Part shown: piece by piece, positions 48,797-61,831 of the stretch
Position numbering within the stretch: position 1 is the stretch's first letter
How the letters are laid out: each line of letters begins with the position of its first letter
Assembly (NCBI RefSeq): GCF_007994075.1
Contig: NZ_VIWU01000001.1
Location: 2,356,001-2,420,000 of the forward strand
From: Pseudonocardia hierapolitana
Lineage (GTDB): Bacteria > Actinomycetota > Actinomycetes > Mycobacteriales > Pseudonocardiaceae
Length of the DNA: 64,000 bases
Direction of reading: 5' to 3'
Position numbers and translations under genes: made by a program
Notes under the pieces: generated by a model
Database searches by the model: none
What the model was told of the DNA's origin: nothing
Seen by the model: the letters and a program-made list of their open reading frames with translations, nothing else

Positions 48797-49392
48797 TGCA
48801 GCTCTGAGGAGCCCTTCCACGTCTCCCAGCACTCGACCGTGCCGCGCCGGTCCAAGGCGGCGCACACCTTCTCGTCCGAGCGGAAGCTGAAGAACCGCGC
48901 CGGTCCGTGCGTGGGCTCGCCGTGCGGGCCTTCGGGAAGGTCGCGGCCGCCCCACAGCCCCACCGCGAGCGGCGCGGCCGGGCGCAGGACCCGCACGATC
49001 TCCGCGAGCGCGGCGTCGAGCTCGGCGTCCGCGACGTGCAGCAGGGTGCTCATCGTCCACCCGGCGTCGAACGTGCCGTCGGCGAACGGGAGGTCGAGAA
49101 CCGACGCGACCCGTGCGTCGAGGCCCAGCGCCCGGCAGGCGGCGACGCTCGCCGGTGCCAGGTCGACACCCGTGTAGTCCAGCCCCGCCTGTACGAGCGC
49201 GGTGCCGTCCCGCCCCGGTCCGGTGCCGACCTCGAGGACGGACCGCCGCTCCTCGGCCCGCAGCTGCTCGATGTACGCCCCGCGCCGGGCCACCCGGTCG
49301 GCCGGCAGCTCCCGGCCCGCCCGCTCCTGCACCTCGTCGTCGTAGTACGCGACGAGGTCGCGCTCCCGCTGCATCCGGTCGGCGTCGGTCAC
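48763..49392 (-). CDS. Class I SAM-dependent methyltransferase
   Basis: The 209-residue enzyme begins at GTG 49392 (VTDADRMQRERDLVAYYDDEV). It contains the SAM-binding motif I SVLEVGTGPGRDG, the acidic residue in YTGVDLAP, motif II VLDLPFADGTFD and a post-motif strand. The family acts on small molecules. The frame upstream of 49392 is open but unlike the family. Methyl acceptor and pathway are unknown. Confidence 0.85.
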   Translation of the reverse strand: MTDADRMQRERDLVAYYDDEVQERAGRELPADRVARRGAYIEQLRAEERRSVLEVGTGPGRDGTALVQAGLDYTGVDLAPASVAACRALGLDARVASVLDLPFADGTFDAGWTMSTLLHVADAELDAALAEIVRVLRPAAPLAVGLWGGRDLPEGPHGEPTHGPARFFSFRSDEKVCAALDRRGTVECWETWKGSSELHYQFAVLRTPA

Positions 49393-49423
49393 GCCCGCAG
49401 CGTGCCACGCCGGGGGACGGTCG

Positions 49424-49447
49424 ATCCCCCAATCCCTCATCCCCCAA
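49424..49447. promoter_or_regulatory. Direct repeats upstream of iniB and the methyltransferase
   Basis: ATCCCCCAA occurs at 49424-49432 and 49439-49447 (15-bp spacing). The reverse strand over 49435-49444 reads GGGGATGAGG, the E. coli MalT box pattern. A related CTTGGGGG...GGGGATC arrangement lies at 57575-57594 before the Hsp70-like gene. The remainder of 49393-49580 has a TTGACA (49530) but no clear -10 box. Confidence 0.35.
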
Positions 49448-49580
49448 GGGCCGTCCCACCCCACAAGACCGGCGGTCGGGTGCTCGCCCGATCCCGGATG
49501 TCCACGGGCCTGCGGACTCCTAGCTTTTGTTGACATCGCCGGAGCGCGAATCGGAAACACGGATCGAGGAGACGATCACA

Positions 49581-50618
49581 ATGACCTCTGTCACCAACGT
49601 CGCGGACCTGCTCGAGACACTGCGCCAGTGGCTGCTCGCCAACCCCAACGGGGACCTCCAGGACTTCGCCGAGCAGCACGACACCACGCCGCAGGAGCTG
49701 GCCGAGGGCTGGAACACCTACTTCGCCCAGGCCGACTTCAGCCGCAACTACAACCTGGACACGGCGCAGTCCGGCTCCCAGGGGGCCACCCAGGCCGCCG
49801 CGCAGGCCGCGCCCGCCTACACCCCGTCGTCCCCACCGCCGTACGACGCGAGCCCCGAGGAGTACGTGCAGTACCTCACGCAGGAAGTGAACAACTACCA
49901 GGAGTTCACGACGATCAACAACATCGAGGACAACTCGATCAACCAGAACATCCAGGCCGGTGGCGACGTCGTCCAGGACTTCGACATCGACAACAGCGAG
50001 CAGACCGCCACCGAGGGCGGCGTGATCATCGACGACAGCAACCTCGACGACGTCGACCTCAACACCGGCGACGTCGGTCCGGGCGGTGTGCTGCAGCAGG
50101 GTGACGACAACCAGGCCGCCACCGGCGACGAGAACGTGCTGCAGGACGGTGACGGCAACGTGGGCAACACGGGCGATCTCGACGCCACCGACGGCAGCGC
50201 GGTCAGCGTGGGTGGCAGCGCCTCGACCGTCGGCAGCGGCAACGACAACTTCGGCAGCGGCCAGAACGCCACCAACGCGGCCGTCGGCGACAACAACAAG
50301 CAGGCCAACCAGCAGCAGGACAACGACACCGACATCGACGTCGACGACGTGCGCGGCGGAGACGCCAGCGCCGACGGCGGTGACGGCGGCACGGGCGGCG
50401 CCGGGACCGGTGGCGCAGGGGGGGCCGGTGGTGCCGGTGGTGGCGTCGACACCGACGGTGGGTTCCCGACCGACATCGACGGCGGCGCTGGTGGCGCAGG
50501 CGGTGCGGGCGGTGCCGGGACCGGTGGCAGCGCGGACGGTGGCGACGGCGGCACCGCCGACGGCGGCGACGCGGACGTCGACATCGACGTGGACAACAAC
50601 CAGGACATCGACTTCTGA
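49581..50618 (+). CDS. iniB: IniB-type protein: helical N-domain plus Gly/Asp/Asn-rich repeat region
   Basis: The 345-residue protein has a short helical domain at residues 5-48 (NVADLLETLRQWLLANPNGD...), a Pro-rich linker, and a DASPEEYVQYL motif near 89-99. The remaining 230 residues are rich in Asn, Asp, Gly and Gln, in repeats such as NSINQNIQAGGD, GDDNQAATGDEN and GGAGGAGGAG. There is no signal peptide or transmembrane segment. The position before two dynamin-like GTPases matches iniB of the isoniazid-induced iniBAC operon. A Shine-Dalgarno (gaggag) precedes ATG 49581. Function in the family is poorly understood. Confidence 0.8.
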   Translation: MTSVTNVADLLETLRQWLLANPNGDLQDFAEQHDTTPQELAEGWNTYFAQADFSRNYNLDTAQSGSQGATQAAAQAAPAYTPSSPPPYDASPEEYVQYLTQEVNNYQEFTTINNIEDNSINQNIQAGGDVVQDFDIDNSEQTATEGGVIIDDSNLDDVDLNTGDVGPGGVLQQGDDNQAATGDENVLQDGDGNVGNTGDLDATDGSAVSVGGSASTVGSGNDNFGSGQNATNAAVGDNNKQANQQQDNDTDIDVDDVRGGDASADGGDGGTGGAGTGGAGGAGGAGGGVDTDGGFPTDIDGGAGGAGGAGGAGTGGSADGGDGGTADGGDADVDIDVDNNQDIDF

Positions 50619-50651
50619 TCGCGGCGATGGGGTAACACCCGGCACCCACCA

Positions 50652-50687
50652 GACCGACTCAGCACCCCTGAGGGTGCTGAGTCGGTC
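50652..50687 (+). terminator. Perfect 16-bp hairpin between iniB and iniA
   Basis: GACCGACTCAGCACCC (50652-50667) and GGGTGCTGAGTCGGTC (50672-50687) are exact complements around a 4-nt CTGA loop. It lies 33 nt after the iniB stop and 32 nt before iniA. It lacks a T-tract, so it may be a partial terminator or an mRNA stabiliser that sets iniB expression above iniAC. Confidence 0.65.
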
Positions 50688-50719
50688 GTCGTCGTGCCGG
50701 CTCTCCACGAGGGGGAAAC

Positions 50720-52525
50720 GTGGCGTTGTCCGATGCGATCCAGCTCGTCGATGTCGCCCGCAAGGCGACCGAGGCCTACGGGCGGCCGGACCTCACGGTG
50801 AAGCTGGCCCGCGCCCGGGAACGGCTGACCGACGCGAGCGTGCGGGTGCTCGTCGTCGGCGAGTTCAAGCAGGGCAAGAGCCTCCTCGTCAACTCGCTCG
50901 TGTCCGCGTCGGTGTGCCCGGTGGACGACGACGTCGCCACCGCGGTGCCCACGGTGGTGCGGCACGCCGCCGCGCCGACGGCGGCACTGGTCCGGGAGCC
51001 GTCGTCCGGTGGCGAGCCGGAGCGGACCGAGATCCCCGTCGGAGAGCTGGCCGAGCACGTCTCCGAGTCCGGGAACCCGGGCAACCGGCAGCGGATCTCG
51101 TACGCGGAGGTGGGCCTGCCGCGGTCGCTCCTCGCGGGCGGGCTGGTGCTCGTCGACACGCCGGGGGTCGGCGGTCTCGGCTCCGCGCACGGGGCCGCCA
51201 CCACGGCGGCGATCGCCGGGGCCGACGCGGTGGTGCTGGTATCGGACGCGTCGCAGGAGTACACGAGGCCGGAGCTCGACTTCCTGGCGACGGCGATGAA
51301 GGTGTGCCCGAACGTCGTCGCGGTGCTCACCAAGACCGACCTGTACCCGGCGTGGCGGCGGATCGCCGAGCTCGATCGCGGGCACCTCGCCGCCGCAGGC
51401 GTCGACGCCGAGCTGATCCCGATCTCCTCAGCGGTGCGCCAGCTCGCGCTGCGCACCAAGAACAAGGCGCTCAACGAGGAGTCCGGGTATCCCGTGCTGG
51501 TCGCGTACCTGCGCGATCAGGTGCTCGGTCAGTCCGAGCGGCTGGCCCGCCGCTCCACCGGCCTGGACATCCTGAGCGTCTGCGAGCAGCTGGCCACCAC
51601 GATGCAGGCCGAGCTCACCGCGCAGGAGACCCCGGAGAAGGCGCACGAGCTGGTGGCCCGGCTGGAGAAGGCGAGGAGTGCCGCCACCCGGCTCAAGGAG
51701 CGCACGGCGCGCTGGCAGGTCACCCTCAACGACGCCATCACCGATCTCTCCGCCGACATCGATCACGACCTGCGGGACCGGCTCAGGACGGTGACGCGGG
51801 AGGCCGAGGCGCTCGCCGAGGACGCCGACCCCGCCGACGTCTGGGACCAGCTCGCCAAATGGGTCCAGCACCAGGTCACCGTCGCCGCATCGGCGAACTT
51901 CGTCTGGGCGAACGAGCGTGCGGGTGCCCTCGCCCAGCGGGTGGCCGAGCTGTTCGCCGAGGACGGGCAGGTCGCCCTCCCCGAGCTGCCGGTGGCCGTC
52001 AGCGGGCCCGGCCCGCGAGTCGCCAGGCTCGAACGCCCCGACATCGAGAAGGTAGGTGCGGGCGAGAAGGCGCTGAGCGCGCTGCGTGGTGGGTACATGG
52101 GCGGGCTGATGTTCTTCATGCCGCTCAGCCTCATCCCCGGGCTGGCCATCGCCGCGCCGTTCGCCGCGGTGGGAGGCGCGCTCCTCCTGGGCCGCAAGCA
52201 GATCCGGGACGAGCGGAAACGGGCGCTCCAGCGCCGGCAGGCCGAGGCCAAGATGCTGGTCCGCAAGCACATCGACGAGGTGCAGTTCCAGGTCGGCAAG
52301 GACTCGAGGGACCTGCTGCGGCGCACCCACCGCACGCTGCGGGACCACTTCACGGCGCTCGCCGAGGAGATGCAGACGTCGTTGGCCGAGTCGGTCGCGG
52401 CGGCGCAGAGCGCGGTGAAGGCGACGCAGTCCGAACGCGGCACCCGGATCGGGGATCTCAAGGCGGAGCTCGACCGCGTCGCGAGTCTCGCCGACCGGGC
52501 CCGCGCGTTGATGGGAGCGTCGTGA
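50720..52525 (+). CDS. iniA: Dynamin-like GTPase IniA
   Basis: The 601-residue protein starts at GTG 50720, 4 nt after gaggggg. The G domain shows P-loop GEFKQGKS (47-54), DTPGVGG (about 146) and TKTD (about 203). A hydrophobic pair of helices at 458-490 (MGGLMFFMPLSLIPGLAIAA...) is followed by a basic region and a coiled-coil tail, matching the membrane-inserting paddle of bacterial dynamin-like IniA. These proteins remodel membranes and respond to cell-wall inhibitors in mycobacteria. The stop overlaps the iniC start (GTGA). Confidence 0.88.
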   Translation: MALSDAIQLVDVARKATEAYGRPDLTVKLARARERLTDASVRVLVVGEFKQGKSLLVNSLVSASVCPVDDDVATAVPTVVRHAAAPTAALVREPSSGGEPERTEIPVGELAEHVSESGNPGNRQRISYAEVGLPRSLLAGGLVLVDTPGVGGLGSAHGAATTAAIAGADAVVLVSDASQEYTRPELDFLATAMKVCPNVVAVLTKTDLYPAWRRIAELDRGHLAAAGVDAELIPISSAVRQLALRTKNKALNEESGYPVLVAYLRDQVLGQSERLARRSTGLDILSVCEQLATTMQAELTAQETPEKAHELVARLEKARSAATRLKERTARWQVTLNDAITDLSADIDHDLRDRLRTVTREAEALAEDADPADVWDQLAKWVQHQVTVAASANFVWANERAGALAQRVAELFAEDGQVALPELPVAVSGPGPRVARLERPDIEKVGAGEKALSALRGGYMGGLMFFMPLSLIPGLAIAAPFAAVGGALLLGRKQIRDERKRALQRRQAEAKMLVRKHIDEVQFQVGKDSRDLLRRTHRTLRDHFTALAEEMQTSLAESVAAAQSAVKATQSERGTRIGDLKAELDRVASLADRARALMGAS

Positions 52526-54003
52526 CGACGCCTGCCGGCGGCAGCCCCGTGTTGCGGGACGCGGTTCGCACGGTGCTGCGGCAGGCCGTCGAGACCTACC
52601 GGGACAGCCCGAACGCCCTCCGCTGGCTGCGCCACCACCTCGACCGCTACGACGAGCCGCTGCGCCTCGCCATCGCGGGAAAGGTGAAGGCCGGCAAGTC
52701 GACGCTGCTCAACGCGCTGGTCGGGGAGGAGATCGCACCGACCGACGCGGGCGAGTGCACCCGCGTGGTCACCTGGTACCAGGACGGCCACGCCCCGGCC
52801 GTGATGATGTATCCGCGCGCAGGTGCGCCCCGCCCGCTGCGGATCGCCCGCGACGACGGGGCACTGCAGATCGACATCGGTGCGCCCGCGGACACGGTGG
52901 ACCGGCTCGAGGTCACCTGGCCGTCGGCCAGCCTCAGAGCCACCACGCTCATCGACACCCCGGGCATCGCATCGCTGTCCCTGGACGTCTCGGCGCGCAG
53001 CGAGCGCTTCCTCGCCCCGGAGGACGCGCCGTCCGCCGCCGACGCCGTGCTGTACCTGATGCGCCACCTGCACTCGGCGGACGTGCGGTTCCTCGAGTCG
53101 TTCCACGACCAGGGCGTGGCGCGGGCCGCGCCGGTCAACACCATCGCGGTGCTGTCACGTGCCGACGAGATCGGCGTCGGGCGCGTCGACGCCCTGCGGT
53201 CGGCCCGCGTGATCGCCGCGCGCTACCGGGCCGACGAGACGCTGCGCGCGTTCTGCCAGACCGTCGTCCCCGTGGCGGGACTGCTCGCCGTCACCGGCCG
53301 CACGATGCGGCAGGACGAGTACGCGGCGCTCGCGAAGCTGGCGACCCTGGCGCCCGACCGGCTGGACGCGCTGCTGCTCACCGTCGACCGCTTCGTCACC
53401 TCCGACGAGGGCACCGACCTCCCCGCCGCCACCCGGGCGAAGCTGCTCGAACGGTTCGGCCTGTTCGGCCTGCGGCTGTCCACCACCCTCATCCGGCAGG
53501 GCGTCGGCGACGCGTCGGCGCTCGCGGCCGAGCTGGTGCAGCGCAGCGGGCTCGTCGAGCTGCGCGAGGTGCTGGCCAGCCAGTTCTCGCAGCGCCGCGA
53601 CGTGCTCAAGGCGCGCTCCGCGCTCATCGCACTCGACCTGGTGCTGCGCCGCGAACCGCGGCCCGCATCGGCGCCACTGGCCGTCGCGGTCGAGCGGATC
53701 CTCGCGGGCGCGCACGAGTTCGCCGAGCTGCGGCTGCTGTCGGACCTGCGCGGCCGGGTCCTGCGGCCCCCGAAGGACCAGGCCGAGGAGGCGGAACGGC
53801 TCATCGGCGGTGGCGGGAACGCGCCCAACCAGCGCCTCGGCCTCCCACCCGACGCCGGCCGCGACGAGCTGCGCGCCGCCGCGCTGGACCGGCTGACGGC
53901 ATGGCGACGGCGCGCGGAGAGCCCGCTGTCCAGCCGGCCCATGGCCAACGCCGCCCGGGTGGTGGTGCGCAGCTGCGAGGGAATCCTCGCCGGCCTCGGC
54001 TGA
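52522..54003 (+). CDS. iniC: Dynamin-like GTPase IniC
   Basis: The 493-residue protein starts at GTG 52522. Its G domain has P-loop GKVKAGKS (52-59), DTPGIAS (about 144), and SRADE as the base-recognition loop. A helical C-terminal region follows, without a strong transmembrane segment. The pairing with iniA in an overlapping operon is the same as in mycobacterial iniAC, where the proteins may form heteromeric complexes. The 3' end converges on the regulator gene with only a 6-nt gap. Confidence 0.86.
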   Translation: MTTPAGGSPVLRDAVRTVLRQAVETYRDSPNALRWLRHHLDRYDEPLRLAIAGKVKAGKSTLLNALVGEEIAPTDAGECTRVVTWYQDGHAPAVMMYPRAGAPRPLRIARDDGALQIDIGAPADTVDRLEVTWPSASLRATTLIDTPGIASLSLDVSARSERFLAPEDAPSAADAVLYLMRHLHSADVRFLESFHDQGVARAAPVNTIAVLSRADEIGVGRVDALRSARVIAARYRADETLRAFCQTVVPVAGLLAVTGRTMRQDEYAALAKLATLAPDRLDALLLTVDRFVTSDEGTDLPAATRAKLLERFGLFGLRLSTTLIRQGVGDASALAAELVQRSGLVELREVLASQFSQRRDVLKARSALIALDLVLRREPRPASAPLAVAVERILAGAHEFAELRLLSDLRGRVLRPPKDQAEEAERLIGGGGNAPNQRLGLPPDAGRDELRAAALDRLTAWRRRAESPLSSRPMANAARVVVRSCEGILAGLG

Positions 54004-54009
54004 TTCCGA

Positions 54010-56631
54010 CTACTTGCCCTCTCCGACGAGCATGCGGAGGTGGGCGAAGAGCTCACCGCGGCTGCCGGAGCCCAGCCGCTGGCGCATCCGGGCCACGTGG
54101 TTCTCCACGGTCTTGGCGGAGATGAACAGCTGCTCGCCGATCTGCTTGTAGGTCAGACCGGACAGGACGAGCTCGGCGACCTCCCGCTCCCGGCCGCTGA
54201 TCGCGCCCGCCGCGCTCTCCGTGGCCTGCTCCGGCACCTTCACCCGCCGCATCGGCTGGGCCCGGCCGGACGTGGCGTCGGCGGGCGCGGTGCCGGGGGC
54301 CTGCTCGGCTCCGCCCTGCAACGCCCGTGCGCAGCCGAGGAGGGCGTTCATGCTCTTGCGGTCCCGGCAACGGATCGCCGCCTGGCTGGCGAGCCGGCCG
54401 CCTTCCCAGCTGAGACCGGCCGCGTGCAGGCCGCGCGCCGCCGCTTCCACCGCTTCGGCGTCGACGTCGCCTGCGAGGCTGCGCAGCCATTCCCGGCCCG
54501 CCGCGGCGACGGCCGTGGCGTACCGGCTGGTGGGGGCCATGCTCTCCAGTGCGGCCGCATGCCGCTGCGCGGTGGTGCCTGCGTCGGAGCCGATGGCGGC
54601 CTGCAGCCCGGACCAGTGCAGCGCCACCGCCCACAGCGGCGGGTTGCCCAACCGGTCGAGCAATGCCTCTGCCTCGTCCAGGTACGGCTGCACCCAGCCC
54701 TGCTCGTTCAGCCGGGCGGCGCCGACCACGAGCTCGCCGAGCGGCTGGAGCGAGTACAGGTCGACCGGGTGGCGGACGATCGCCTCGCGGGCCCGGCGCC
54801 AGCCGGCGAGGAGCCCGGCGAGGTCACCCGCTCGGCGCGCGAGCCCGACCTCGAGTGCGGCGGCCAGCAGCTCGTCCCTCGGCTCGAGCCCGCCCGGACC
54901 CGATGCCGACTGCAGCAGCGCCCGCGCCTGGGCGCTCGCCCCGCGGTGCATCGCGACCAGCGCCTGCAGCAGCAGGTGGCGGGCCGCGACGACGCGCCCG
55001 CCGAGCTCCGCGGCGACGGCCTGGCCCAGCACGGACTGGGCGACGTCCAGCTCCCCGCAGTGGATCGCGACCAACGCGGCCAGCGCGGCGGGCGTGTCCG
55101 GCAGCAGCGCCGCCCGGCCGGACGACTCCAGCAGCACGGCCGCGCGCGTGAGCTGCGAGAGCGCGGCGGTGGGGGTGCCGGCGACGGTGTCGTGGATCCC
55201 ACGCGCGAGCAGCGCCTCCGCACCGGCCAGCACGGTGGGCGCCCCACCGGCGCTGCCCGGCGCCGCGTCCAGGACGGCCCTGGCCTCGTCGAGCGCCCCG
55301 ATGCCGACGAGCGCGGGCACCGCGAGCAGGCTGGCACCGCCGAACGGCTGCGCGGCGAGCCACCGGTACAGCTCTGCGCTGCGGCTCAGCATGCCGCGGT
55401 GGGCGAGCACCGCCGCTGCCACGGCCACCGCCCGCTGCGCCGCGTCGCCGTCCACCGCGGCCGGTTCGGCGAGCACCTGGTCGGCCCGTCGCAGCGCGGC
55501 GTCCAGGTCGCCGACGACCATCGCGGCCTCGGCCCGCCGGGCGGCGAGGGCCAGCGGGGGAGCTCCGGCCTCGACCGCGGCGTCGAACAGGTCCACTGCC
55601 ACGGGCAGGCACTCCCGCAACGCCTCGTCGCCCGCGCGCTCGAACGCATCCGCCACTCGCGTGCCGGTCGCCCCGCTGCCGATCAGACCGCGCGCCGCGA
55701 CGAGCACGCTGCCGCCGGCGTCGAGCTGGATCTCGGCCAGTCGGCGCTGCAGCACCAGCCGGTTAGCGGCCGGAACCCCGCGCACCATGGCGTGCCGAAC
55801 CAGCGGCACGACCTCGCCGCTGGGCGCCATCAGCCCGGTGGCGGCGGCCTGGTCGAGCAGCTCCCCCACGGCGCCGGGTGACACGTCGAGCAGCGCGGCG
55901 AGCACCTCCGGGTCGACAGGAGCGCCCACGGTGCGGCCCAGCAGCAGCTCGCGGACGCCGGCCGGCTGCGCGTCGATCTCGTATCCCAGCTGCCGGACGA
56001 CGGCGGCGGGCGGCTCGCCTGCCGAACCGAGCCGGTCGAGCGCCCGGTCGTCGCGCAGCCCCACGAGCAGCCGGTCGACGAGGTCCGGTGATCCGCCGGT
56101 CTGCTCGGACACCAGGTCCACCAGCTCGGCGGTGGGGCGCTCGCCCAGCAGCAGGTTCGCGCGTGCGGCGACGCCCTGGCGGTCCAGCGGCCCGAGGACG
56201 ACCGGTCCGCGGCCTGCGCCGAACGCGACGACGATCGAGGCGAGCACCCTGCCCCGCGGCCATGGCCGGTGGGCGAGCACGACCTGGGACCCGGGTTGGG
56301 CGGCCCACGTCCGCACCCGTTCCAGAGCAGCCTCGTCGAGCTCGTGGGCGTCGTCGACGAGCAGCACGACGTTCGGGTCGAACGACTCGTCGGGCCCGGG
56401 GACGTCGCGCCGGACCGTGACCCCTGCGACCCCGAAGAGCGCGCCCAGCACCCCGAGCAGCACGCTCTTGCCACTGCCACCGGGGCCGACCACCACCCTG
56501 CGACGCGGCGACGTGGGTGCCGAGGCGATCTCCCGGTACAGCCTGCGAGCGGCGGGCGCGCCTGCGAGCGCGCTGTCCGAGCCGTCGCTCTCGGCCTTGA
56601 CGGCGGTCATCACGGTCTGGCCACGTGTCAC
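54010..56631 (-). CDS. IniR-like P-loop ATPase with C-terminal LuxR helix-turn-helix
   Basis: The 873-residue protein has a P-loop GPGGSGKS (49-56) and Walker B VVLLVDDAHELD (88-99). A helical TPR-like body of about 550 residues follows, and then a LuxR DNA-binding domain (about 808-870) with SGREREVAELVLSGLTYKQI. This is a MalT-like signal-transduction ATPase. In mycobacteria the iniBAC operon is controlled by the adjacent MalT-like ATPase IniR in response to trehalose, so I infer the same role. GTG 56631 has gggagg upstream. Direct evidence for the ligand is lacking. Confidence 0.82.
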   Translation of the reverse strand: MTRGQTVMTAVKAESDGSDSALAGAPAARRLYREIASAPTSPRRRVVVGPGGSGKSVLLGVLGALFGVAGVTVRRDVPGPDESFDPNVVLLVDDAHELDEAALERVRTWAAQPGSQVVLAHRPWPRGRVLASIVVAFGAGRGPVVLGPLDRQGVAARANLLLGERPTAELVDLVSEQTGGSPDLVDRLLVGLRDDRALDRLGSAGEPPAAVVRQLGYEIDAQPAGVRELLLGRTVGAPVDPEVLAALLDVSPGAVGELLDQAAATGLMAPSGEVVPLVRHAMVRGVPAANRLVLQRRLAEIQLDAGGSVLVAARGLIGSGATGTRVADAFERAGDEALRECLPVAVDLFDAAVEAGAPPLALAARRAEAAMVVGDLDAALRRADQVLAEPAAVDGDAAQRAVAVAAAVLAHRGMLSRSAELYRWLAAQPFGGASLLAVPALVGIGALDEARAVLDAAPGSAGGAPTVLAGAEALLARGIHDTVAGTPTAALSQLTRAAVLLESSGRAALLPDTPAALAALVAIHCGELDVAQSVLGQAVAAELGGRVVAARHLLLQALVAMHRGASAQARALLQSASGPGGLEPRDELLAAALEVGLARRAGDLAGLLAGWRRAREAIVRHPVDLYSLQPLGELVVGAARLNEQGWVQPYLDEAEALLDRLGNPPLWAVALHWSGLQAAIGSDAGTTAQRHAAALESMAPTSRYATAVAAAGREWLRSLAGDVDAEAVEAAARGLHAAGLSWEGGRLASQAAIRCRDRKSMNALLGCARALQGGAEQAPGTAPADATSGRAQPMRRVKVPEQATESAAGAISGREREVAELVLSGLTYKQIGEQLFISAKTVENHVARMRQRLGSGSRGELFAHLRMLVGEGK

Positions 56632-56752
56632 CGCACCAGCCCTCCCGTGTCGATACCGTCGTCCGTCGCCGTACCTGACGCTGTCGCTGCGAGCCCGGGA
56701 GCCCGATCAGGTTAGCGACCCGACCCGGTACAGGAGAGGCCCGAACGGTCGC

Positions 56753-56778
56753 TGATACACACTGCGCGCCGTGTATCA
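56753..56778. promoter_or_regulatory. Inverted repeat upstream of the IniR-like gene
   Basis: TGATACAC (56753-56760) and GTGTATCA (56771-56778) are perfect inverted arms with a 10-bp spacer. The site is about 120 bp before the regulator start and 24 bp past the stop of the acidic gene. It may be an operator or a terminator. Confidence 0.5.
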
Positions 56779-56801
56779 ACTCGGTCGCCGGGGCCGCGGC
56801 G

Positions 56802-57485
56802 TTAGCTCACCGCGAACGGTTCGCCCGGGTCGTCCGCGCCGGCAGCGGCGCCGAGCCCGGTGACTCCGTCGTCGAAGGAGTCGTCGGATTCCGGGTGCGC
56901 CGACGCCGCGAACGGGTCGTCCTCGACGAGATCGACCTCGGGTGGATCCGCCTCCTGTCGCTCGACCGGGGCGGCGGCGTCGGCGGGCTCGACGACCTCG
57001 GCGGGCTCGACGGGCGGCGTCTCGTCCGGCACGTCCAGGAACGTCGCGTCCTGGTCGAGGTCGTCGATGTCGTCGAGGTCCGTGTCGGTGTCGATGTCGA
57101 TGTCGGTGTCGATGTCGATGTCGGTGTCGATGTCGGTGTCGATGTCGGTGTCGAGGTCGTCGCCGTCGAGGTCGTCACCGGTGGCAGCGAGCGTGTCGTA
57201 GCCGACGACGTCGAGGTGTCCGTCCTGGGCGAGCTCGCGCAGGTAGCGGTCGGCGTGCTCCTCGGGGGTCTCATCGGGCTGCGGCGCGGGCGGCACGAGT
57301 GCGGGTGCCGGCCCGTCCGCGGAGGAGAAGTCGGTGCGGAGGTTGTCGAGGAAGATGGGCAGGAGGTCGGCGACCTCGACGGCGCTGAACCCGTGCGCGT
57401 GCGCGATCACGGACGGACTGGTCCCCGGACTCTCCAGGATCATCCGCGTGACCTCCCAGATGGAGGCGCTCGGTTCAGCAGACAC
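56802..57485 (-). CDS. Acidic IniB-like protein with Asp-rich repeats
   Basis: The 227-residue protein starts at GTG 57485. A helical N-domain (IWEVTRMILESPGTSPSVIA...FLDNL, 9-49) is followed by a Pro-rich linker, a DETPEEHADRYL motif at 71-82, and a long Asp-rich tail with DIDTDIDID-type repeats. The order and the PEE...YL motif match the IniB protein at 49581, so I regard it as a second IniB-like member. It is predicted to be cytoplasmic and disordered. It is divergent from the Hsp70-like gene. The function is unknown. Confidence 0.65.
   Translation of the reverse strand: MSAEPSASIWEVTRMILESPGTSPSVIAHAHGFSAVEVADLLPIFLDNLRTDFSSADGPAPALVPPAPQPDETPEEHADRYLRELAQDGHLDVVGYDTLAATGDDLDGDDLDTDIDTDIDTDIDIDTDIDIDTDTDLDDIDDLDQDATFLDVPDETPPVEPAEVVEPADAAAPVERQEADPPEVDLVEDDPFAASAHPESDDSFDDGVTGLGAAAGADDPGEPFAVS
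57082..57153 (-). repeat. Twelve hexanucleotide units in the acidic IniB-like gene
   Basis: Twelve consecutive 6-bp units of gtgtcg or atgtcg, read on the minus strand as alternating Asp-Thr and Asp-Ile codons, form the D/T/I repeat of the protein. Gain or loss of a unit would change the length by two residues without a frameshift. Confidence 0.85.
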
Positions 57486-57676
57486 GACGCAACCCTACGA
57501 AGTCCGGGGCTCACCGCAATCAGGGATGCGACGGAGTCGTGACGCGCCCGGATCGGACCTCGGAGGCCGTCCGGCTTGGGGGGTTTAGGGGATCCGACGG
57601 CGACTTGTGCACCGGGGGATGACCGCGGGCCACCACGCCGTGGAGGCTCCGATCCGGAACGGGCGAGGGGGCACCC

Positions 57677-59437
57677 ATGAGTTACCAACTCGGGATCGAT
57701 CTCGGGACGACCTACACGGCGGCGTCGGTGTCCCGCGCGACGGAACAGCAGCACGCCGACCCGGAGATGGTGTCGCTCGGCGATCGCGCGGTTCAGGTGC
57801 CATCGGTGCTGTACCTCGCCCCCGACGGCTCGGTACTGGTCGGTGAGGCGGCCGAGCGGCGCGCGTCGACCGATCCGGACCGCGTGGTGCGCGAGTTCAA
57901 GCGGCAGATCGGCGACGAGATCCCCATGGTGGTCGGCGGGAGGCCGTACCCGGCCCACGAGCTGGCCGCGACGCTGGTGGCGTGGGTCGTGCAGCGGGTC
58001 GCCGAGCGCGAGGGCGGCCCGGCCCGCCGAATCGCGCTGACCCACCCCGCGTCGTGGGGGCCGCACAAGAAGGAGCTGCTGCACGGGGCGCTGGCCACCC
58101 GCGGGTTGAACGTGACGTTCCTGGCCGAGCCACAGGCCGCCGCCCTCAGCTACGCGGCGGCGGAGCGGATCGAGCGCGGGTCCACGATCGCCGTCTACGA
58201 CCTGGGTGGCGGCACGTTCGACGCCGCGGTCGTCCGCAAGAACGGCACGTTCACCTTGCTGGGGCGGCCGGAGGGCATCGACCGGCTCGGCGGCATCGAC
58301 TTCGACGACGCGGTGTTCACGCACGTCCGCGAGGCCGTCGGGAACGCGTTCGACCAGCTCGACCCCGCTGACGACACCGCGGTGGCGGCCGTGTCCCGGC
58401 TCCGGCGCGAGTGCAAGGAGGCGAAGGAGGCGCTGTCGGCCGACACCGAGGTGCGGATCGCCGTCCTGCTTCCGGGGCTGCAGACCGCGGTGCGCCTGAC
58501 CCGCGGCGAGTTCGAGGCGATGATCCGCCCGCAGCTCGAGGAGAGCGTCGACGCCCTGCACCGGGCGGTGGTCTCGGCCGAACTCTCGCCGCCGGACCTG
58601 ACCGCCGTGCTGCTCGTGGGCGGTTCCTCGCGGATCCCGCTGGTCGCCCAGCTGGTCTCGGCCGCGTTCGACCGTCCGGTGGCGGTGGACGCCGACCCGA
58701 AGAACGCGATCGCGCTCGGTGCCGCGCTGTCGATCTCGCCGCGCCCGGAGTCGTGGCCCGCGGCGAATATCCCGCCGGTCGCGCCGCCCGTCCATCCGGT
58801 GCCCACCCGGCCTGCGCCGCCCGCACCGGTGCCGTCCGCCCACGCGGCGCCGACGACGCCCGTGTCGCCGATCGCCGACCCGCTGCGGCCGCCGGTACCG
58901 TCCCTCACCCCGGACCTGCCGCTGTCCCCCGGCCTGACGGGGGCACGGCGGCCGATGGTGGTGTTCGGGGCGGGGGGCCTGCTCGTCGCCGCCGCGATCG
59001 CCGCAGCCCTGGTGTACGGCCCCGAGAACCCGGGCCCGGCCCCCACCGGCGGGACCACGACGTCCGTCGTGCAGGCCCCGGAGCTCACGGAAATCCCGGC
59101 TCCCGAGGACGCCGCCCCGGCCGCCGTCGAGGAGCAGGGCGGCAACGCGGCGCGCCCGCAGAACCAGGGTGGAGCGGCGCGACCGCAGAACCAGGGCGAT
59201 CGGCCGCAGTCCGGCAACGACGACACCGGCGACGACAACGACCCGCCGACCACCACCACGACGCCCCCGACCACCACGACGACCACCACGACGACGACCA
59301 CCACGAGCGCCCCACCACCCCCGATCGACCCGGGGAAGGGTGACGGCGCTCCGGTCGACGGCCAGGCGGGCAACGCGCCGCAGGTGCCGATCGAGGAGGC
59401 CTCGAACAGCGAGGCGGAGGATGCCGGCACGAGGTAG
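57677..59437 (+). CDS. Membrane-anchored Hsp70-family ATPase lacking the substrate-binding domain
   Basis: Residues 1-355 form an Hsp70 ATPase domain with GIDLGTTYT (6-14), DLGGGTFD (about 175) and VGGSSRIP (about 314). Instead of the usual beta-sandwich and lid there is a Pro-rich linker (360-420), one transmembrane helix (about 426-447, VVFGAGGLLVAAAIAAALVY), and an outside tail rich in Pro, Asn and Thr. It cannot bind unfolded peptide in the normal way. The gene borders the iniBAC-like set, so it may couple ATP-driven change to the envelope. ATG 57677 is the only suitable start. Confidence 0.88.
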   Translation: MSYQLGIDLGTTYTAASVSRATEQQHADPEMVSLGDRAVQVPSVLYLAPDGSVLVGEAAERRASTDPDRVVREFKRQIGDEIPMVVGGRPYPAHELAATLVAWVVQRVAEREGGPARRIALTHPASWGPHKKELLHGALATRGLNVTFLAEPQAAALSYAAAERIERGSTIAVYDLGGGTFDAAVVRKNGTFTLLGRPEGIDRLGGIDFDDAVFTHVREAVGNAFDQLDPADDTAVAAVSRLRRECKEAKEALSADTEVRIAVLLPGLQTAVRLTRGEFEAMIRPQLEESVDALHRAVVSAELSPPDLTAVLLVGGSSRIPLVAQLVSAAFDRPVAVDADPKNAIALGAALSISPRPESWPAANIPPVAPPVHPVPTRPAPPAPVPSAHAAPTTPVSPIADPLRPPVPSLTPDLPLSPGLTGARRPMVVFGAGGLLVAAAIAAALVYGPENPGPAPTGGTTTSVVQAPELTEIPAPEDAAPAAVEEQGGNAARPQNQGGAARPQNQGDRPQSGNDDTGDDNDPPTTTTTPPTTTTTTTTTTTTSAPPPPIDPGKGDGAPVDGQAGNAPQVPIEEASNSEAEDAGTR

Positions 59438-59458: not shown

Positions 59459-59656
59459 CTACCGGTTCTCGCGACGCTCTGCTGCGACCCGGCGCAGCTC
59501 CTCGCGGACCCGCTCGACGTTCCACCGCGCATGACCCCCGATGGACTCGAGGTCCGGGGTCAGGAGCCCGTCCTTGCGGTACTTCTGGATCGTCCGGGGC
59601 GCCAGCCCCAGTGCACGCGCCAGCTCCGCCGTGGTCACCAGCCGGGGCTCAGGCAC
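59459..59656 (-). CDS. BldC-like small MerR-type helix-turn-helix protein
   Basis: The 65-residue protein (MPEPRLVTTAELARALGLAP...IGGHARWNVERVREEL) has the winged MerR-type DNA-binding fold without a dimerisation or effector domain, as in BldC. BldC binds head-to-tail direct repeats. Between this gene and the divergent 59753 gene there are three GCGG-containing repeats at 9-bp spacing, consistent with autoregulation. A stop follows at 59459. No nearby target other than the divergent gene is evident. Confidence 0.75.
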   Translation of the reverse strand: MPEPRLVTTAELARALGLAPRTIQKYRKDGLLTPDLESIGGHARWNVERVREELRRVAAERRENR

Positions 59657-61562: not shown

Positions 61563-61831
61563 CAACGCTCCTCGTCACGCAGGTCGCGCAGCAGCTGCCC
61601 GGCATCCGAACCCGGTTCGGCCCGGTGGACGGGTACGGGGATCGGGCCGGCGACCGTGGCCGGCACCACCCTGCCCTGGGCGACCCAGTCGTCGAGCTCG
61701 CCCACTCCTGCAGAAACGATGCGAGCGATCACGCGACCATGGCGGGTGATCTCCACGGTCTCGCCATTCTCGACGCGAGCCAGCACACCCGCGGTGTCCT
61801 GGTTCAACTCGCGCACCGGCACCTGACCCAT
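61559..61831 (-). CDS. Phd/YefM-type antitoxin (VapB role)
   Basis: The 90-residue protein starts at ATG 61831 (MGQVPVRELNQDTAGVLARV), the classic Phd/YefM N-terminus that binds DNA (ENGETVEITRHGRVIARIV). The C-terminal half is proline-rich and would wrap around the toxin. It overlaps the VapC gene by 4 nt. The near-perfect palindrome just upstream is its likely operator. Pairing of a Phd-type antitoxin with a PIN toxin is common in actinobacteria. Confidence 0.9.
   Translation of the reverse strand: MGQVPVRELNQDTAGVLARVENGETVEITRHGRVIARIVSAGVGELDDWVAQGRVVPATVAGPIPVPVHRAEPGSDAGQLLRDLRDEERW

Follow-up and report, generated by a model that had tools for sequence, protein, structure and literature searches.

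An iniBAC-type locus in Pseudonocardia hierapolitana with a conserved and little-noticed Hsp70-fold partner

The window analysed here, 64,000 nucleotides of the Pseudonocardia hierapolitana genome (8.86 Mb in one contig; NZ_VIWU01000001.1, positions 2,356,001 to 2,420,000), carries six contiguous ini-type genes at 49393..59437, and, in agreement with the initial annotation of this stretch, no other gene was seen between them on reading the sequence. An iniB-type gene (49581..50618, + strand, 345 amino acids) encodes a three-helix N-terminal domain followed by an acidic tail rich in Asn, Asp and Gly. It is followed on the same strand by two genes for dynamin-like GTPases, iniA (50720..52525, +, 601 amino acids; Dynamin_N 72.3 bits) and iniC (52522..54003, +, 493 amino acids; Dynamin_N 45.3 bits), the iniC start overlapping the iniA stop, and the IniA product aligns with the solved M. 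smegmatis IniA (6j72) at 406.8 bits over 592 residues (query 7-598). On the opposite strand lie the gene for an IniR-type regulator (54010..56631, -, 873 amino acids), with an N-terminal ATPase and a C-terminal LuxR-type helix-turn-helix (GerE 51.9 bits), and an iniB*-like gene (56802..57485, -, 227 amino acids), again with a three-helix N-terminal domain and an acidic tail. The last gene (57677..59437, +; PF00012 176.2 bits) encodes an Hsp70 made up of a nucleotide-binding domain, a membrane stretch and a Pro/Thr-rich tail.

The ATPase, the middle part and the LuxR-type end of the regulator form one full-length IniR-type protein beside iniA and iniC, which matches the NCBIfam equivalog IniR (NF038181) at 450 bits over profile positions 3-825 of 827. 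Gene order, strands and homology all agree with the earlier proposal of an iniBAC-iniR-type locus outside Mycobacterium: iniB, iniA and iniC follow one another on one strand, and we consider kinship with the mycobacterial system very probable. Two features sit less well with it. The regulator's 450 bits fall below the curated NF038181 cut-off of 750, which was passed in 8 of the 150 genomes of an order sample, and iniB* lies between iniR and hsp70, not between iniR and iniBAC; in the sister locus L035 it is placed before iniB. The annotation also knew of no description of the second acidic gene and the Hsp70 as parts of the system, but both iniB* and a dnaK-like gene beside iniR appear in the covered portion of an earlier paper (Boot et al. 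2017, PMC5760070). The locus is thus of a kind already known, met here in a new genus, and its partner is conserved but has drawn little notice.

That the partner is conserved follows from three sets of loci fetched around iniA or IniR: those of the same genus (L031-L068, two loci of the window's own genome among them), those of the order sample (anchored on the 36 IniR matches that reached E 1e-90 in genomes other than the window's own) and those of named genomes (the best 80 of 588 matches in one scan). The unnamed and named sets are counted apart because they partly overlap (L034 and L163 lie on one and the same contig) and because some genomes contribute more than one locus to the named set. 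An Hsp70 was found in 33 of 38 same-genus loci (24/24 with full flanks, meaning 8 kb on both sides of iniA), in 33 of 36 order-sample IniR loci (26/27 with flanks) and in 71 of 80 named loci, including all 57 with full flanks. Those 57 loci carry iniC in every case, iniR in 56 (counted at 250 bits, which admits regulators matching only in part), an IniB domain in 54 and all five gene types in 53, and the named set ranges from Pseudonocardia, Lentzea and Kutzneria to Arthrobacter, Georgenia, Cellulomonas and Microbacteriaceae. Nine named loci lack an Hsp70: in eight of them a contig end lies no more than 3.4 kb from iniA, and in the ninth, L164, the two flanks measure 9.1 kb and 3.3 kb. The chance expectation is about 1.6% per 20 kb, a background rate based on 69 Hsp70-type matches in about 89 Mb of 12 chosen genomes, ini-linked matches counted. 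A profile search found IniB-type domains, each some 50 residues long and between one and three to a locus, in 66 of 77 records, so that the linkage of both genes, which the initial annotation had put forward for checking, is borne out. IniB-type proteins, the dynamin pair and an Hsp70-fold partner usually travel together, mostly with an IniR-type regulator; the exception L105, which has IniR and an IniB domain without iniA and Hsp70, speaks against a strict rule.

The association extends further. IniA loci beyond the order (L137-L141) have an Hsp70 in 5/5 cases, as do 4/4 distant dynamin pairs (L144, L145, L147 and L148), the latter as illustrations and not a sample because they were chosen partly for an Hsp70 already seen alongside. 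At L140 and at these four loci the Hsp70 adjoins a dynamin pair without a full-length IniR. No Hsp70 was found at the IniA genes without IniC at L070 and L143 (the latter with only an 18-bit piece at its edge), nor at another eight distant dynamin-like loci where iniC had no match (L149-L156, among which L153 has three dynamin-like matches and L149 is shortened by its contig). Several observations on layout may be recorded here. L145, which lies at 5929600-5949500 of the window's genome, and L147 have the LuxR-type end of another protein nearby, and most of L214-L242, mostly from Micrococcales, have a co-directional hsp70-iniR-iniB-iniA-iniC order, as do the Paenarthrobacter loci L222, L230 and L236 among them. 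The window's genome carries two further ini loci, L031 (3670000-3689000) and L032 (5621000-5640900), one of which has the full gene set with three IniB domains, the other a regulator whose match is confined to IniR positions 363-868 and so leaves out the ATPase part.

The window Hsp70 covers the nucleotide-binding domain only, the PF00012 match (profile 2-370 of 599) stopping at position 370, and no substrate-binding domain was detected; this domain was checked by Pfam in the window protein, the other linked Hsp70s being judged by tail length and composition. All nucleotide motifs examined are intact in it (GIDLGTT, the catalytic lysine, DLGGGTFD and VGGSSRIP). A predicted transmembrane stretch of 19 residues (VVFGAGGLLVAAAIAAALV, 58958..59014, +; Kyte-Doolittle mean 2.47) precedes the Pro/Thr-rich tail, so that the annotation was right about both the membrane stretch and the missing domain. 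Transmembrane-like stretches are found in 51/65 tails of the unnamed set and 58/67 of the named set at a Kyte-Doolittle threshold of 1.7, and in 53/65 and 66/67 at 1.4. Scoring an Hsp70 as degenerate when the catalytic lysine was lost and no more than three of five key residues were kept, we counted 30 intact, 34 degenerate and 2 mixed proteins in the unnamed set (66 linked Hsp70s) and 56 intact, 11 degenerate, 3 mixed and 1 unscored in the named set (71). On a FastTree tree of IniA (137 rows, holding both sets, so that some genomes occur twice), the intact/degenerate label changes eight times, with at least seven changes forced by starred branches. The Hsp70 ATPase thus appears to have decayed repeatedly, loss being far more likely than regain, though an unrooted tree such as this cannot tell the two apart. 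These counts split the wider module that the annotation had suggested: the Hsp70 and the second IniB-like gene do belong to the locus, as their linkage indicates, but a membrane-anchored chaperone-type ATPase acting with the dynamins is not supported as a general arrangement, given the degenerate proteins (34/66 and 11/71) and the 14/65 unnamed-set tails without a clear membrane stretch.

The linked Hsp70s vary in other ways. In those of L096-L098, L100-L102 and L104 the nucleotide-binding domain is missing some 85 residues (query 203-289), and those of L078-L085, L090-L094 and L103 have no clear membrane stretch and mostly end in an RPPVxITPL-like motif. We considered this motif as a conserved docking motif of the tail, since it occurs in 21/132 tails against a shuffled mean of 3.6 (maximum 9), and dropped it: it is mainly found in family f15 and part of f1, and the match in the window is absent from the sisters L033 and L034. 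A single clade of all linked Hsp70s, separate from the remaining Hsp70s, is not supported either, as the label needs seven changes on a quick 62-row Hsp70 tree with weak deep forks, whose labels are impure (L111 carries the label 'other' although its sequence is identical to that of the linked L148). The window's genome also has an Hsp70 paralogue at 5040702-5041775 (L157), 67% identical to the window Hsp70, with no iniA match listed there in the iniA search of this genome, and in some genomes of family f8 a gene grouping with dnaK is found no more than about 10 kb from the ini locus (L142, and G069:C1 with a dnaK-type gene at 723623 and iniC at 730.6 kb).

Neither acidic protein of the window gave a Pfam or NCBIfam match at E 0.1, and both were too diverged to be reached directly by the profile of the IniB N-terminal domain, which was seeded from the same-genus locus L047. 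Profile-profile comparison (hhalign) connects them, at 76% between IniB* and the window IniB family and 72% between window IniB and the general IniB domain family (for which comparison alone 20 column-shuffled controls were built, none above 0.85%), IniB* reaching only 29% directly against the general family. The AlphaFold2 models have a common N-terminal layout of three helices plus a fourth (residues 7-20, 26-32, 37-50 and 92-115 in IniB; 9-18, 24-30, 35-53 and 74-87 in IniB*) and low-confidence acidic tails, with a mean predicted local distance difference test score of 53.8 for IniB and 63.6 for IniB*; a fold search run with the IniB model returned no match at E 0.001. On the strength of the profile-profile links and the common layout, the second acidic gene is a counterpart of mycobacterial iniB* in kind and neighbourhood, short of an established strict orthologue. 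Two IniB domains per locus are also found in the loci of group g8 whose IniR is over the cut-off (L069 and L071-L077), a group called mycobacteria-like solely because its IniR passes that cut-off.

Upstream regions provide a second line of evidence that these genes form a unit. Boxes of the TTAGGGGAT type are common to the upstreams of iniB-type and hsp70 genes, and therefore point to common regulation; they were not found upstream of iniR, iniA or iniC. GGGGAT occurs at 4.92 per kb upstream of iniB-type and hsp70 genes vs 0.40 per kb elsewhere in the same loci. When the window was scanned with a matrix whose training loci excluded the window and its three sisters and included the other ini loci of the window's own genome, its three best sites fell in the gap between iniB* and hsp70 (57580..57600, +, 18.1 bits) and upstream of iniB (49417..49437, -, 16.7 bits; and 49432..49452, -, 15.9 bits, containing GGGGATGAGG), all three being predicted IniR-type boxes. 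The next sites lie elsewhere, at 61629 (14.8 bits) and 19097 (13.9 bits), and three sites as good were met in 0/100 first-order Markov windows built from the window's dinucleotide counts (mean 0.2). Only the top ranks carry weight, because the 22 window sites at 8 bits are no more than the 17 to 36 in its shuffles, and a possible second box upstream of hsp70 (57607..57627, +, 8.3 bits) has a score no rarer in shuffled sequence. The exact GGGGATGAGG occurs twice in the window, one copy lying inside iniA, and a paired pattern has 11 occurrences in the genome (control 2), of which the ini locus at 3.68 Mb accounts for four and the window for none.

The same distribution recurs across loci. With a matrix trained on 33 same-genus loci, tested on other loci at a threshold of 14 bits, a box was found upstream of 29/44 iniB-type and 24/37 hsp70 genes, against 0/34 for iniR, 1/36 for iniA, 0/24 for iniC and 6/2162 control pieces. 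In the named set, the held-out window-scan matrix at the same threshold found a box before iniB or hsp70 in 26/47 Pseudonocardiales-like and 7/28 Micrococcales rows, and before iniC in 0/48 and 1/29, respectively. The f15 loci have TTAGGG variants, and CCCCTAAC is found upstream of iniB in 19/29 Micrococcales loci (L214-L242; 0 in background iniC stretches). The word TAGGGGATTAGGG was counted 18 times in the order's 150 genomes, with 12 of these copies falling within fetched ini loci, and within g8 it is present in 8/8 genomes with IniR over the cut-off and in 0/5 others (of which G078, the sole one checked, has no iniA match at E 1e-20), a distribution that is weak as evidence for binding. 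Read backwards, TAGGGGATTAGGG was itself found eight times in seven of the genomes with a match; it is a poor control because it still fits a tandem of the box.

Several counts weigh against a simple coupling of box and regulator. The iniB and hsp70 counts are not independent, because one intergenic region serves both genes in most loci. Boxes at 14 bits occur in 30/69 named loci with an IniR-type match and 3/8 without, which is no clear difference; 8/63 unnamed-set loci with a full IniR stay below 14 bits; and L137 has IniR and no box at this threshold. The notion that boxes occur wherever IniR does, and only there, is not supported by these figures. No box at 14 bits was found in the 20-kb loci L144, L145, L147 and L148, nor in 18 kb around the orphan paralogue L157. 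From the distribution as a whole we nevertheless think it probable that the IniR-type protein jointly regulates the locus promoters through the predicted boxes. Work by Alland and colleagues in 2000 reportedly concerns this promoter and may already describe these repeats. Word searches of Boot et al. (2017; PMC5760070) found no IniR motif, nor did the surveyed titles and beginnings of abstracts.

Between iniB and iniA lies a perfect 16-bp inverted repeat (50652..50687, +), a possible RNA hairpin with no T-run behind it. Perfect stems of at least 11 bp, differing in sequence, precede iniA in 23/72 loci and iniC in 0/59. Published RNA-seq suggests more IniB than IniA and IniC (PMC5760070, portion covered), and the putative hairpin fits the idea that IniB is made in excess. 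The locus is bordered upstream by a methyltransferase gene, 49393 being the first base past it if its start is the GTG at 49392, and downstream by a small open frame (59459-59656).

The observed gene content, conserved linkage, box distribution and motif decay lead us to favour, by a modest measure, a module that answers envelope stress under the control of IniR, of the same kind as mycobacterial iniBAC, in which the Hsp70 docks on the dynamin pair; each step of binding or activity in it is one that we infer. Envelope damage would cause the IniR-type regulator to bind the TTAGGGGAT/GGGGATGA boxes before iniB and in the divergent iniB*-hsp70 promoter, switching on all effectors together, and iniR, sitting behind iniB*, may be boosted along with it. 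In M. tuberculosis, IniR binds upstream of iniBAC (PMC5760070, portion covered). The acidic IniB and IniB* proteins may each bind a partner through their small helical N-terminal domain, and the iniB-iniA hairpin would keep IniB in excess over the GTPases. IniA, which according to the covered part of one study cuts membranes (PMC6715688), would assemble with IniC on the plasma membrane, which the two would then remodel or cut. The Hsp70, anchored in this membrane and facing the cytosol with its nucleotide-binding domain, would dock or assemble the IniB/IniA/IniC complex, and where its ATPase has decayed in other lineages the docking role might be kept without ATP turnover. An effector-side docking role is our best single guess for the Hsp70, though it falls a little short of an even chance. 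Three observations tell against it as a universal arrangement: the 14/65 unnamed-set tails without a clear membrane stretch, some of which are cut by contig ends; the locus L105; and M. smegmatis, where the dnaK-like gene beside iniR is given as a difference from other mycobacteria (PMC5760070, portion covered), so that the Hsp70 is dispensable somewhere.

The Hsp70 could instead act on the sensing side. MalK restrains MalT in E. coli, and by analogy a membrane Hsp70 with its tail outside the membrane might hold or release IniR and so report the state of the envelope. The hsp70 gene directly adjoins iniR in many loci, most linked Hsp70s combine a transmembrane-like stretch with a long tail (51/65 and 58/67 tails), and Boot et al. 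infer a periplasmic sensing step (PMC5760070, portion covered). This arrangement is nonetheless unlikely, as Hsp70 also stands beside dynamin pairs with no full-length IniR nearby (L140, L144, L145, L147 and L148) and f15 and part of f1, which do have IniR, lack the membrane stretch. Slightly less probable still is that hsp70 and iniB* are simply co-regulated targets acting apart from IniA and IniC. Common boxes require no physical interaction, and L105 combines iniR and iniB without iniA, iniC or hsp70; yet the Hsp70 accompanies dynamin pairs that have neither a full IniR nor a 14-bit box (L144, L145, L147 and L148), and common regulation by IniR is therefore not the sole tie. Finally, it is very improbable that the Hsp70 is an ordinary chaperone which, together with DnaJ and GrpE, uses ATP cycling to refold envelope clients or IniB: the window protein does have all the nucleotide motifs examined, but it has no substrate-binding domain, and ATP-driven chaperoning is unlikely as the general role of the linked Hsp70s because their catalytic residues have decayed repeatedly (34/66 and 11/71 degenerate; eight changes on the IniA tree).

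Docking of the Hsp70 on the dynamin pair thus remains the reading we prefer. In mycobacteria iniBAC is widely used to report the action of drugs on the cell wall, which lends interest to the question of how its proteins work together. The comparison made here identifies the parts that usually travel together, predicts an operator and marks the ATPase of one partner as expendable in several lineages. Within the literature surveyed, three results look new, namely the general linkage of the Hsp70, the repeated decay of its ATPase and the operator predicted here; a general linkage of Hsp70 with iniA is undescribed in the surveyed titles and beginnings of abstracts, a survey outside which most subscription journals lie.

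Among known systems, the E. coli MalT regulon resembles the window in its regulator, a signal-transduction ATPase with a LuxR-type DNA-binding end, and differs in its target genes; the MalT box, GGGGAKGAGG, is similar to the box predicted here. The nearest relative is the iniR-iniB*-iniBAC system of Mycobacterium, which in the covered portion of its description likewise has co-directional iniB, iniA and iniC, an adjacent IniR-type regulator and a small iniB* (Boot et al. 2017, PMC5760070). Unlike that system, the window places iniB* beyond iniR, where it diverges from hsp70, and has an IniR below the equivalog cut-off; its Hsp70 keeps the ATPase motifs, unlike the Hsp70s of the g8 loci with IniR over that cut-off. 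Campylobacter DLP1 and DLP2 are, like IniA and IniC, two dynamin-like proteins encoded as operon neighbours, in an operon reported to include an HcpA-like beta-lactamase, and in the covered part of that paper Hsp70 appears only in the title of a reference (PMC6104087). The 'chaperone group' of cyanobacterial dynamin-like proteins is likened to the window by gene neighbourhood, a DnaK-domain gene adjoining the dynamin-like gene, with IniR and IniB unmentioned in the portion covered (PMC5827413). We tentatively suggest, as a broader and rather doubtful generalisation, that IniA/IniC-type dynamin pairs across Actinomycetota may work with a dedicated Hsp70-fold partner, a membrane docking or assembly switch for the dynamin-IniB complex that was born as an ATPase and became a pseudo-Hsp70 several times without leaving the locus. 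If this is true, the parallel with the cyanobacterial dynamin/DnaK neighbours would make the coupling of Hsp70 and dynamin an old bacterial theme.

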